A stretch of DNA of 39,059 nt from Sinomonas humi (GTDB taxonomy: Bacteria; Actinomycetota; Actinomycetes; Actinomycetales; Micrococcaceae), in NCBI RefSeq assembly GCF_000802235.1, contig NZ_JTDL01000132.1:1-39059 (forward strand), given 5' to 3'. The position numbers were made by a program, and so were the translations under genes. Positions 25,819-30,555 of this stretch are shown piece by piece. A model generated the notes under the pieces. It was not told the DNA's origin and did no database searches. It was given only the letters and a program-made list of their open reading frames with translations. Within the stretch, counting starts at the first letter, position 1. Every line of letters begins with the position of its first letter.

Positions 25819-26838
25819 ATGCCAGCCATCGACCTGCCACTGCAGGAGCTCCGTTCGTACCGCGGGAGCAGCCCGCTGCCCGACGACTTCGAGGCGTTCT
25901 GGGACGCCACCATCGCCGATGCCCGCGAGCACCCGCTGGCTGTCCGCTTCGAACGCGTCGAAACCTACCTCCCGCTCGTCGAGACCTTCGACGTGACGTT
26001 CGCCGGCTACGCTGGCGACCCCATCAAGGCCTGGCTCCACCTCCCCGCGCTGCAGCCCGGGCAGCAGCGGGAGCCGCTTCCCGCCGTCGTCCACTACCTC
26101 GGCTACTCCGGCGGACGGGGACTGGCTCACCAGAACACCCTGTGGGCGCAAGCGGGGTACGCGATGCTCATCATGGATTCGCGCGGGCAGGGCTATGGCG
26201 CTCTGGTGGGCGAGACGGCTGATCCTCACCCCAGCGCAGGAGGAACTGCCTACCCCGGGCTCATGACCCGCGGCATCCTGGATCCGAAGACGTACTACTA
26301 CCGCAGGCTCTTCACCGACGCCCTCCGAGCGGTCGAAGCCGTGCAAGCGCATCCCGCGGTGGACGCGTCCCGCGTCGTCGTCCAAGGTGTTTCGCAAGGC
26401 GGTGGGCTTGCCGTCGCGGCGGCTGGGCTCGCTGCGGGAAGGGTCGACGGCGTCATCGCCTGCCTGCCCGACGTCAACTTTCTCGCCGACTATCCCCGCG
26501 CCCTCGACATCGCGACGACCGGCCCCTACCCGGAGCTCGAGAACTACCTCAAGCGCCACCGCGAGCACGTTGACGCAGCCTTCATGACCCTGCCCTACTT
26601 CGACGTCGTCAACCTCGCGCGGTTCGCGCGGGTCCCCGCGTACTTCTCCGTCGCCCTCCGCGATACGACCTGCCCGCCGTCGTCCGTCTACGCCACGTAC
26701 AACCGCTACGGTGAGGCGGCGGGCGACGCCGGGCCGGTGGAGAAATCGATCGAGGAGTACGCCTTCAACAATCATGAGGGCGGGGGAGAGCACCACGTGG
26801 TCCGGCAGCTCGCGTGGCTCCGGAAGCTCTTCGCCTGA
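25819..26838 (+). CDS. axe: Carbohydrate esterase family 7 acetyl esterase (acetylxylan esterase/cephalosporin-C deacetylase)
   Basis: 339-aa alpha/beta-hydrolase of CE7, removing acetyl groups from imported oligosaccharides in the cytoplasm (no signal peptide). Family hallmarks are PLPDDFEAFWDATI at the N-terminus, LGYSGG, DSRGQGYG (the RGQG motif), GVSQGGGLA with nucleophile Ser192, RDTTCPPSSV with Asp282, and YAFNNHEGGG with His319. Length is typical of CE7 (about 320-340 aa). It is divergent from the LacI gene and controlled through the operator just upstream. In a rhamnose/uronate locus, acetylated pectin fragments are a likelier substrate than xylan, which is inference. Confidence 0.9.
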   Translation: MPAIDLPLQELRSYRGSSPLPDDFEAFWDATIADAREHPLAVRFERVETYLPLVETFDVTFAGYAGDPIKAWLHLPALQPGQQREPLPAVVHYLGYSGGRGLAHQNTLWAQAGYAMLIMDSRGQGYGALVGETADPHPSAGGTAYPGLMTRGILDPKTYYYRRLFTDALRAVEAVQAHPAVDASRVVVQGVSQGGGLAVAAAGLAAGRVDGVIACLPDVNFLADYPRALDIATTGPYPELENYLKRHREHVDAAFMTLPYFDVVNLARFARVPAYFSVALRDTTCPPSSVYATYNRYGEAAGDAGPVEKSIEEYAFNNHEGGGEHHVVRQLAWLRKLFA

Positions 26839-26850
26839 GCTGCGTCACAA

Positions 26851-26879
26851 TTGCGCCGCAAGGGACGACCTCGTAAGGT
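26851..26879 (+). promoter_or_regulatory. Promoter of the DAHP synthase leader transcript
   Basis: TTGCGC (26851-26856), a 17-nt spacer and TAAGGT (26874-26879). The A of the leader-peptide ATG at 26886 is 7 nt beyond the -10, so the leader peptide may be translated from a leaderless mRNA. AAGG within the -10 could otherwise act as a Shine-Dalgarno. Confidence 0.6.
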
Positions 26880-26885
26880 GCTCAC

Positions 26886-26939
26886 ATGATCAAGCGTTGG
26901 TATGCGTATTTTGCGTTGGCTCTGGAGGGCCAAGCGTAG
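26886..26939 (+). CDS. Aromatic-rich leader peptide for attenuation of DAHP synthase
   Basis: 17-codon ORF encoding MIKRWYAYFALALEGQA. Residues 5-9 (Trp-Tyr-Ala-Tyr-Phe) contain all three aromatic amino acids, the end products of the pathway whose first enzyme is encoded 114 nt downstream. It begins at the predicted transcription start. Its Trp-Tyr-Ala-Tyr-Phe codons (26898-26912) overlap one arm of the RNA stem formed with 26945-26955, the layout expected if ribosome stalling on scarce charged tRNAs changes RNA folding. Its role is inferred from position and codon content. Confidence 0.75.
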   Translation: MIKRWYAYFALALEGQA

Positions 26940-27047
26940 ATACGCGCATACCAACCTTCAGAGCCGACAGGGCAGGGACTCCGGTCCCTGCCCTTCGCCG
27001 TTCCAGGCAGGCTCTGAACGCTCCGGGGCCTGTCGGAGAGAGACAGG
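26896..27047 (+). promoter_or_regulatory. Attenuator RNA upstream of DAHP synthase
   Basis: Competing stems are visible. Stem A: GTTGGTATGCG (26896-26906) with CGCATACCAAC (26945-26955), 11 bp. Stem B: GGCTCTGGAG (26918-26927) with CTTCAGAGCC (26956-26965). Stem C: TTCAGAGCC (26957-26965) with GGCTCTGAA (27010-27018). Stem D: CCGACAGG (26964-26971) with CCTGTCGG (27029-27036). Stem E: CCTGTC (27029-27034) with GACAGG (27042-27047), next to the AGGA ribosome site of the gene. A and B cross, B and C share an arm, and D and E share an arm, so they are mutually exclusive. Whether control is by termination or by access to the ribosome site is not settled by sequence. Confidence 0.65.
26970..26993 (+). 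terminator. Terminator-like hairpin in the DAHP synthase leader
   Basis: GGGCAGGGAC (26970-26979) and GTCCCTGCCC (26984-26993) form a perfect 10-bp GC-rich stem with a TCCG loop, followed by TTCG but no T run. It is the best candidate for the attenuating terminator and overlaps by two bases the arm of stem D. Confidence 0.6.
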
Positions 27048-27052
27048 AACCC

Positions 27053-28156
<1,104 letters not shown>

Positions 28157-28292
28157 CCTCGCAAGACACCTACTTTCACAAGAGTCCCTCGAGCATCTAC
28201 AGTAGCTAGCACATGCACAGTGAGGGCACCGACAGTCACGTCGTCGAGCGGGCCTCATGGGGATTGCGTCGACGGCGAGCAAGGAACTGAAG

Positions 28293-28505
28293 ATGGCTGG
28301 TTCGGGGGAATTCGCGAATACCCGCTTCCTCACGGTCGCGGAGGTCGCGGCGGTGATGCGCGTCTCGAAGATGACCGTGTACCGCCTTGTGCATTCCGGC
28401 GAGATGCCTGCCGTGCGCTTCGGGCGGTCGTATCGCGTGCCGGAAGCTGCCGTCGAGGAGTTCGTCCGGCGTTCGACCGTGGATGGGAATACCGAGACCG
28501 CCTGA
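28293..28505 (+). CDS. Excisionase/BldC-like helix-turn-helix DNA-binding protein
   Basis: 70-aa protein consisting almost only of a MerR/Xis-type winged helix: NTRFLTVAEVAAVMRVSKMTVYRLVHSGEMPAVRFGRSYRVPEAAVEEFV. Size is like Streptomyces BldC (68 aa), but the recognition helix is closer to the general 'excisionase family' group. AAGGA lies 7 nt before the ATG at 28293. A possible promoter, TTCACA-N17-TACAGT, is at 28175-28203. No integrase or phage gene is nearby, so it is probably a chromosomal regulator; it lies directly upstream of the bS22 gene. Confidence 0.85.
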   Translation: MAGSGEFANTRFLTVAEVAAVMRVSKMTVYRLVHSGEMPAVRFGRSYRVPEAAVEEFVRRSTVDGNTETA

Positions 28506-30401: not shown

Positions 30402-30432
30402 CTGCGCCCCGCCCTCGTCCGGTACGCCTTTT

Positions 30433-30474
30433 CGTCTCGGGTACGCCAACTCACGCGTGCTCGTACCCGAAACG
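30433..30474. repeat. Inverted-repeat element, copy 2 of the CTCGGGTACGCCAACT family
   Basis: CGTCTCGGGTAC (30433-30444) and GTACCCGAAACG (30463-30474) are inverted with 11 of 12 positions matching, with an 18-nt loop starting GCCAACT. The left arm plus GCCAACT matches the copy at 28849-28866. Confidence 0.75.
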
Positions 30475-30555
30475 CTCAGGCGAGAGGTTATCTGTACCCG
30501 GAACGCTGAGGGGAGAGGTTATCTGTACCCGAAACGAATGGGCGGGAGGGTTAGC
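30463..30555. repeat. 31-bp tandem repeat, three copies
   Basis: Units start GTACCCGAAACG (30463), GTACCCGGAACG (30494) and GTACCCGAAACG (30525). The first two end with GAGAGGTTATCT; the third diverges and runs over the stop codon of the minus-strand HAD gene (30551-30553). Confidence 0.85.

Follow-up and report, generated by a model that had tools for sequence, protein, structure and literature searches.

A probable ribosome-mediated attenuator with an aromatic-codon leader peptide upstream of the DAHP synthase gene aroF in Sinomonas humi and its relatives

The window analysed here is the whole 39,059-nucleotide stretch of Sinomonas humi contig NZ_JTDL01000132.1. It carries aroF, a gene for a 367-residue class I (AroFGH-type) DAHP synthase whose product matched Pfam DAHP_synth_1 (1e-81) and TIGR00034 (5e-140). 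A long open reading frame (ORF) at 26711-28156, in frame with aroF, was discarded as mechanical. The same genome encodes a second DAHP synthase, of class II, at G000:C7:126865-128157. Downstream of aroF, positions 28257-28505 encode a small excisionase-family/HTH_17 protein that by eye also follows aroF in several members of the genus. Further along, three tandem 31-nt repeats of the GTACCCGAAACGCTCAGGCGAGAGGTTATCT type (30463-30555) follow an Nramp transporter gene, and an inverted partner occupies 30425-30445. The features of the aroF upstream region are listed below with the evidence on which each was assigned.

26851..26879, + strand: promoter-like -35 TTGCGC and -10 TAAGGT (sequence; hexamer distance kept in 160 of 172 relatives)
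26886..26939, + strand: ORF for the leader peptide MIKRWYAYFALALEGQA, with a probably leaderless start (short ORF present at 114 of the 115 family loci examined)
26898..26912, + strand: sensor codons TGG TAT GCG TAT TTT, W5 Y6 A7 Y8 F9 (near invariant in 123 distinct regions)
26915..26928, + strand: strand 2 (leader codons 10-15), predicted partner of strand 3 when the ribosome stalls upstream (inverted repeat, alignment, folding)
26955..26968, + strand: strand 3, which pairs with strand 2 or, through 26957-26965, with strand 4 at 27010-27018 (inverted repeats, alignment)
26969..26994, + strand: GC hairpin T of 11 bp (arms at 26969-26979 and 26984-26994), with TCGCCGTTCC after it (inverted repeat, covariation)
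26997..27008, + strand: small hairpin T2 (GCC/GGC), its 3' arm common to strand 4 (covariation)
27006..27018, + strand: strand 4, of which 27006-27016 pairs with 27024-27034 (strand 5) and 27010-27018 with strand 3 (alignment)
27024..27034, + strand: strand 5, in hairpin 4:5 or free, its 27029-27034 then pairing with 27042-27047 across the Shine-Dalgarno AGGA (alignment, folding)
27042..27048, + strand: strand 6 with the aroF Shine-Dalgarno AGGA at 27045-27048 (sequence, folding)
27053..28156, + strand: aroF, class I DAHP synthase, 367 aa (Pfam, TIGR00034)

Translation of 26886-26939 gave the leader peptide MIKRWYAYFALALEGQA, 17 codons plus a stop, and 113 nt separate that stop from the aroF ATG at 27053. 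A DNA pattern for WYAYF occurred only once in the 4.4 Mb genome. The hexamers TAAGGT (26874-26879) and TTGCGC (26851-26856), read from the sequence as -10 and -35 elements, have a spacing of 17, and these positions would place the transcription start at, or adjoining, the leader ATG. A sigma-70 scanner called no promoter at the leader region. Among 172 distinct relatives, a TANNNT ending 5-7 nt upstream of the leader start was found in 160 (121/124 Micrococcaceae-type, 20/23 mycobacterial-type and 19/25 other distinct sequences). Because this hexamer is so widely kept and a Shine-Dalgarno-like string precedes the leader in only 2 of the 172, a leaderless start of the leader peptide is likely to be the rule among relatives and no oddity. 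A previous sequence-only reading of this DNA had described the 17-codon ORF with Trp-Tyr-Ala-Tyr-Phe at codons 5-9, which we confirm at 26886-26939, and a short gap to the DAHP synthase gene, which is indeed present with its length corrected from 114 to 113 nt. The same reading considered a leaderless leader unusual for an attenuator, a remark that the hexamer counts contradict, as do a published ilvB leader cited as lacking a ribosome-binding site (in the accessible part of that literature) and the leaderless Cys attenuators discussed below.

Of 295 genomes from the family, 116 encoded an AroF relative, as did 58 of 296 from the class. The sequence-only reading had made its case depend on the leader ORF being present in relatives, and a short leader ORF was found in 114 of 115 family aroF regions, the window's own counted. 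The leader core was WYAYF at 109 of these 115 loci, WYSYF at 2, and WQAYF, WYANF and WYAYL at 1 each; the sole locus without a leader ORF (L193, genome G305) is frameshifted after WYAYF. In the class sample outside the family, 47 of 55 genomes were examined, of which 31 had a leader and 16 had none. Fifteen of these 16 belong to the actinomycete family f35, in which 0 of the 15 loci examined carried an aroF leader (L125, L127, L130-L132, L134-L136, L140, L145, L231, L232, L234, L239 and L240). A second family encodes AroF in 170 of 201 genomes and had the leader at 20 of the 20 loci examined, mostly one per genus; three of these (L284-L286, from small genomes of 2.3-2.7 Mb) have an RFYF leader followed by a T-like hairpin. 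Other Actinomycetes have YWRF, RYPYF, RFYF and YFWF versions before aroF. In a contig scan, 38 of 79 loci among the matches listed carry a leader, Rubrobacter included, and many of those without one are not from Actinobacteria. Loci L067 (Rubrobacter) and L053 (an unclassified actinobacterium) have FYYR leaders and a strong U-tract after T, with strands 4 and 5 not clear. Three loci were dropped from these surveys, namely G198 (apparently identical to G159), L028 (on the contig already represented by L004) and L138 (contig end). Leaders of 19 other-family loci were picked by eye, starts with the hexamer were preferred in the second family, and L045 has no assigned start.

Built from 38 sequences, a covariance model of the element recovered this site and no other at E<0.5 in the window's genome; with strict filters at E 0.01 it matched 38 of the 248 order genomes and 6 of the 296 phylum genomes. 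All 30 strong matches (E 3e-7 or better) with a fetched locus lay upstream of aroF, 8 of the 38 order-level matches having come without a locus and been left out of this check; three matches that were not upstream of aroF were weak (E 2e-4 to 0.68). Against the Rfam covariance models, neither the window nor six relatives reached a gathering score, and 26800-27100 gave sub-threshold matches only.

The sensor codons are conserved as codons and not just as residues. The sequence-only reading had pointed to the WY.YF codons as the part to compare among Micrococcaceae, and codons 4-9 are close to invariant across 123 distinct Micrococcaceae-type regions: CGT in 121, TGG in 123, TAT in 122, GCG in 121, TAT in 121 and TTT in 120. 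In 55 aroF genes TAT makes up 1 of 275 Tyr codons and TTT 2 of 388 Phe codons. When each distinct leader ORF of the three groups was counted once over all its codons, the TAT/TAC ratio was 153/11 and the TTT/TTC ratio 101/9, against 10/297 and 9/444 in the aroF genes that follow 59 of those leaders. Codons beside the sensors in mycobacterial leaders are, by eye, mostly GC-rich. In the Tyr and Phe codon boxes one tRNA usually reads both codons, and selective isoacceptor charging would therefore not explain the choice of TAT and TTT. One published theory bases codon choice in attenuators on isoacceptor charging (PMC1183508, in its available text).

Folding of 26887-27060 gave -96.4 kcal/mol compared with -62.1 +/- 4.1 for 200 shuffles (z -8.3), none of which folded as well. 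Five inverted repeats were found within the region: 11/11 bp between 26896-26906 and 26945-26955 (the codon stem, stem 1), 14 nt at 86% between 26915-26928 and 26955-26968 (helix 2:3), 11/11 bp between 26969-26979 and 26984-26994 (hairpin T), 9/9 bp between 26957-26965 and 27010-27018 (helix 3:4), and 15 nt at 80% between 26964-26978 and 27022-27036. Pairing was evaluated in alignment A1, which holds 56 of 133 Micrococcaceae-type sequences after omission of near-identical ones and of 14 with a stop-to-start distance above 125 nt; L020, L181, L202, L210, L215 and L226 were also left out by hand as divergent, a choice that favours the pair counts given here. A second alignment, A2, holds 38 of the 56. 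In A1, T was paired in 99.6% of cells with 5 of 10 pairs changed on both sides, a result reached by 0 of 500 shuffles, and T2 in 98.2% with 3 of 4 pairs so changed (0/500). Helix 4:5 was paired in 91.9%, with 4 of 10 pairs changed on both sides (12/500 shuffles) and 24 such cells (0/500). Helix 3:4 was weaker, paired in 90.4% with 2 of 9 compensatory pairs (138/500 shuffles) and 7 compensatory cells (0/500). Helix 2:3 was paired in 98.1% of cells and is nearly invariant in the family, with 2 compensatory cells. Shifted versions of all five helices gave far less pairing than the true register. Across 25 representatives, the own strands of 2:3 paired at a mean of -33.8 kcal/mol compared with -27.9 for foreign strands and beat the foreign mean in 23 of 25, the own pairing being the very best in only 4 of 25.

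Two further pairings were rejected. The codon stem as a protector (26896-26906 with 26945-26955) was 78.1% paired in the 56 relatives with 0 compensatory pairs, and 500 of 500 shuffles reached that percentage. The 26964-26978 with 27022-27036 stem, considered as an antiterminator of T, is present in the window and by eye lost outside the genus. Covarying stems, which the sequence-only reading had suggested looking for, are T, T2 and 4:5, with 2:3 conserved; its 11-bp codon stem exists in the window and is not conserved. Its GC hairpin, given as 10 bp at 26970-26993, is conserved as an 11-bp hairpin at 26969-26994; a role as the alternative to an antiterminator-like helix is not supported, as 2:3 ends before T.

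Helices 2:3 and 3:4 are mutually exclusive since strand 3 is common to both, and 2:3 involves the leader ORF. Hairpin T is compatible with both alternatives, as 2:3 ends at 26968 and T begins at 26969. Because T lies inside the loop of 3:4 and strand 4 is common to T2 and 4:5, the conserved choice appears to be 2:3 plus 4:5 versus 3:4 plus T2. At the level of sequence comparison, the leader, its sensor codons, the hexamer distance, 2:3, T, T2 and 4:5 are demonstrated, 3:4 more weakly; the starvation response and its direction we infer. The distance of the conserved -10 hexamer suggests that transcription would begin at the leader ATG and that a ribosome would translate MIKRWYAYF and onward. 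With charged tRNA-Trp, -Tyr or -Phe scarce, this ribosome would halt at codons 5-9 and leave strand 2 free to pair with strand 3. Formation of 2:3 would make strand 4 available to strand 5, and the resulting 4:5 would keep the aroF ribosome site open (ON). With aromatics plentiful, a ribosome at the stop codon would cover strand 2, strand 3 would pair with strand 4 around T and T2 in a three-way junction, and the released strand 5 would close the Shine-Dalgarno sequence (OFF). Hairpin T may be an additional terminator, or the terminator itself.

In an effort to evaluate the ribosome-site end of this scheme, the cost of opening the aroF ribosome site was computed with strand 5 free, held in 4:5, or shuffled. 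Mean costs were 8.55, 3.09 and 5.56 kcal/mol, respectively, in Micrococcaceae-type sequences (n=113), 8.67, 3.23 and 4.87 in mycobacterial-type ones (n=22), and 7.26, 3.66 and 6.04 in the other group (n=15); values for the window were 11.1, 2.5 and 2.8. These sets, and those used for masked folding, leave out sequences beyond distance limits or lacking a found hairpin. Among dereplicated relatives, free strand 5 closed the site more than its shuffled version in 74 of 92 (p 3.5e-12), the 11 others alone giving p 0.1. When strand 5 was swapped for those of relatives, the own strand exceeded the foreign mean in 47/81 (p 0.001), 14/17 (p 0.0013) and 6/11 (p 0.58) of the three groups. In the genus, the opening cost of the two states differs by more than 2 kcal/mol in 14 of 15 members, L005 being the exception. 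No closing strand for the ribosome site was found in L161, L164, L170, L173, L176 and L186.

In full-length equilibrium folding with a ribosome mask, 2:3 was stronger under a stall than with the ribosome at the stop codon in 79/79 Micrococcaceae-type, 18/19 mycobacterial and 11/11 third-group sequences of the dereplicated sets. In the same 79 Micrococcaceae-type sequences, a first-codon stall did not consistently lower the opening cost (higher in 37, p 0.29) and left 3:4 (p 0.15) and 4:5 (p 0.86) unchanged. In the mycobacterial group, the cost under a stall was not higher in 16 of 19 (p 0.0046), a modest opening, and in the third group the effect was not significant (p 0.1). Averaged over stall sites in the undereplicated sets, the stop state cost more than the stalled state in 79/125 Micrococcaceae-type sequences (p 2.5e-5), and in 14/23 (p 0.83) and 12/20 (p 0.52) of the other groups. 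In the window, a ribosome at W5 or Y6 gave a fold of 2:3, T and 4:5 with an opening cost of 5.2-5.4 kcal/mol. Both a stop-codon ribosome and the absence of any ribosome gave the three-way junction and 5:6, at a cost of 8.9-9.0. Stalls at Y8 and F9 kept the OFF-like junction in the lowest-energy fold, with costs of 4.8 and 8.3. The complete relay thus appears in the window only for Trp5 and Tyr6 stalls, and is inconsistent across the family. The notion in the sequence-only reading that all three aromatic amino acids would be sensed at once finds support in the window's predicted switch only for those two stalls, and equal sensing of the three is not supported. As a modelled result, the relay is a genus-level inference, not a phylum-level one, and readout in the genus is perhaps at translation initiation. 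The Tyr8-stall fold, which keeps the junction, and the 138 of 500 shuffles that match the compensatory pairs of 3:4 lower our confidence in the relay, which as the main readout we rate at somewhat less than even.

A classical transcription attenuator, in which T is an intrinsic terminator and the position of the ribosome decides termination, is likewise a possible reading that we would hold at somewhat less than even confidence. T is the best-supported hairpin (0/500 shuffles), and the 10 nt after it are richer in T, at 0.36 compared with 0.18 for the whole region (177 of 183 sequences, some hairpins being mis-assigned). Many relatives have tails such as CUUYGYCAUUU there, and genuinely U-rich tails occur in L067 (Rubrobacter), in L053 and in some mycobacteria, L058 and L063 among them. 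However, neither the window nor the folds read by eye showed an overlap between 2:3 and T or an antiterminator excluding T, a terminator scanner called 0 terminators in 26800-27100, and 3:4, the competitor of 2:3, requires strand 4, which lies downstream of T's tail. The trp-type arrangement of an intrinsic terminator excluded by an antiterminator was thus not found: T adjoins 2:3 without overlap, and U-rich tails occur only in some relatives. By eye, the YFWF leaders L247, L248, L299 and L303 have shorter regions that lack T, and the simple hairpin formed there by strands 3 and 4 would be excluded by 2:3, which is a classical attenuator layout; both readouts may occur in the family.

Peptides can also act directly, as TnaC does when it arrests the ribosome with Trp, and conservation of the leader beyond its aromatic residues in Micrococcaceae would suit a sensor in which RWYAYFxLALEGP itself halts the ribosome upon sensing a free aromatic amino acid. 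Yet the nucleotides are conserved too, CGT TGG TAT GCG TAT TTT and GCT CTG GAG barely varying even at silent sites, as RNA pairing demands, and the peptide after F varies between families. In L193 (G305) and L151 (G154) the reading frame is shifted after the aromatic codons and in L210 (G277) the leader end is altered, the strand-2 DNA GCTCTGGAGG being kept in all three. Arrest by plenty would also run counter to the needs of a biosynthetic gene, short of an inverted RNA logic, and we consider direct peptide sensing very unlikely. Less probable still is that the ORF arose by chance in a structured promoter-proximal region or that the nearly invariant 18-nt block CGTTGGTATGCGTATTTT is a DNA operator, a repressor site just past the start. 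A chance ORF would hardly persist at 114 of 115 loci of the family and also beyond it. As for an operator, other families have different DNA in place of the block, and their short ORFs contain aromatic codons of a like kind. The preferred reading, to which comparison of sequences points, remains that aroF is very probably controlled by ribosome-mediated attenuation at this element; we are also rather confident, if a little less so, that it works through the 2:3 switch, and it would be ON in aromatic starvation. Attenuation by a leader containing codons for all three aromatic residues, the core of the sequence-only reading, is supported by the conservation of the leader ORF and 2:3.

The primary paper on the Corynebacterium glutamicum aroR-aroF attenuator is reportedly that of Neshat et al. 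2014. In that organism a Phe-Tyr-Phe leader peptide, aroR, precedes aroF (PMC11802643, PMC4046766 and PMC7356990, in their available text). As far as the accessible passages go, one paper labels aroR a translational regulatory leader peptide, another from the review literature calls it transcription attenuation, a label that favours the classical reading above, and its response is reported to Phe and not to Tyr. Both systems place a leader peptide with aromatic codons immediately in front of the gene for a class I DAHP synthase. Judged by the published descriptions, the window differs in having Trp and two Tyr codons (WYAYF) and in the proposed link from structure to ribosome site, of which the accessible descriptions of aroR make no mention. 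The aroF leader is very probably homologous to aroR, the RFYF members L284-L286, whose core matches the reported Phe-Tyr-Phe, providing a link. Its Trp and Tyr codons, together with a relay to the ribosome site that is possible, would set it apart among homologues; if the relay is wrong, it is simply a new member. Among the papers listed in our literature search there was no account of this leader outside Corynebacterium, subscription papers being outside its reach.

The regulatory codons, alternative helices and proposed ON state in starvation resemble the transcription attenuators of the trpL/pheL type in E. coli (PMC11802643, in its available text). Unlike these, the window's leader ORF probably has a leaderless start, and its terminator-like hairpin lies in the 3:4 loop, is compatible with 2:3 and has no called U-tract. 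The poly-Cys attenuators of mycobacteria (Canestrari et al. 2020, as cited in the accessible text of PMC13236596, which calls them translation attenuation) share a leaderless short ORF upstream of biosynthetic genes, a likeness by description, but concern another amino acid and other genes. Seliverstov et al. 2005 predicted trp, cys, ilvB and leuA attenuators in Actinobacteria (PMC1262725), in the same phylum and by the same approach; its available text reports no conserved structures for other amino acid pathways and leaves aroF unmentioned. A stalled leader ribosome that frees a ribosome site through alternative helices recalls the erm-type translational attenuators, which differ in sensing an antibiotic instead of charged tRNA and in using fewer helices.

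The most far-reaching version of the scheme would be a widespread actinomycete pan-aromatic sensor, in which a leaderless peptide reads Trp, Tyr and Phe through rare U-ending codons, a relay of about 110 nt (2:3, 3:4 around the three-way junction, 4:5 and 5:6) conveys the result to aroF translation initiation, and the embedded hairpin serves as spacer or second-tier terminator. This full version strikes us as doubtful, again in view of the Tyr8 fold and the 3:4 shuffles. What the comparison offers is a widening from one described attenuator, C. glutamicum aroR, to a whole family traceable through the Actinomycetes, in which the sensed residues vary by clade (WYAYF, YWRF, RYPYF, RFYF and YFWF) and the RNA partner strands change along with them. 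Why the Tyr and Phe sensor codons are those nearly missing from the controlled gene is one question for which the element is a test case, and another is how a leaderless ribosome drives attenuation. It is also a candidate sensor of aromatic supply for metabolic engineering.
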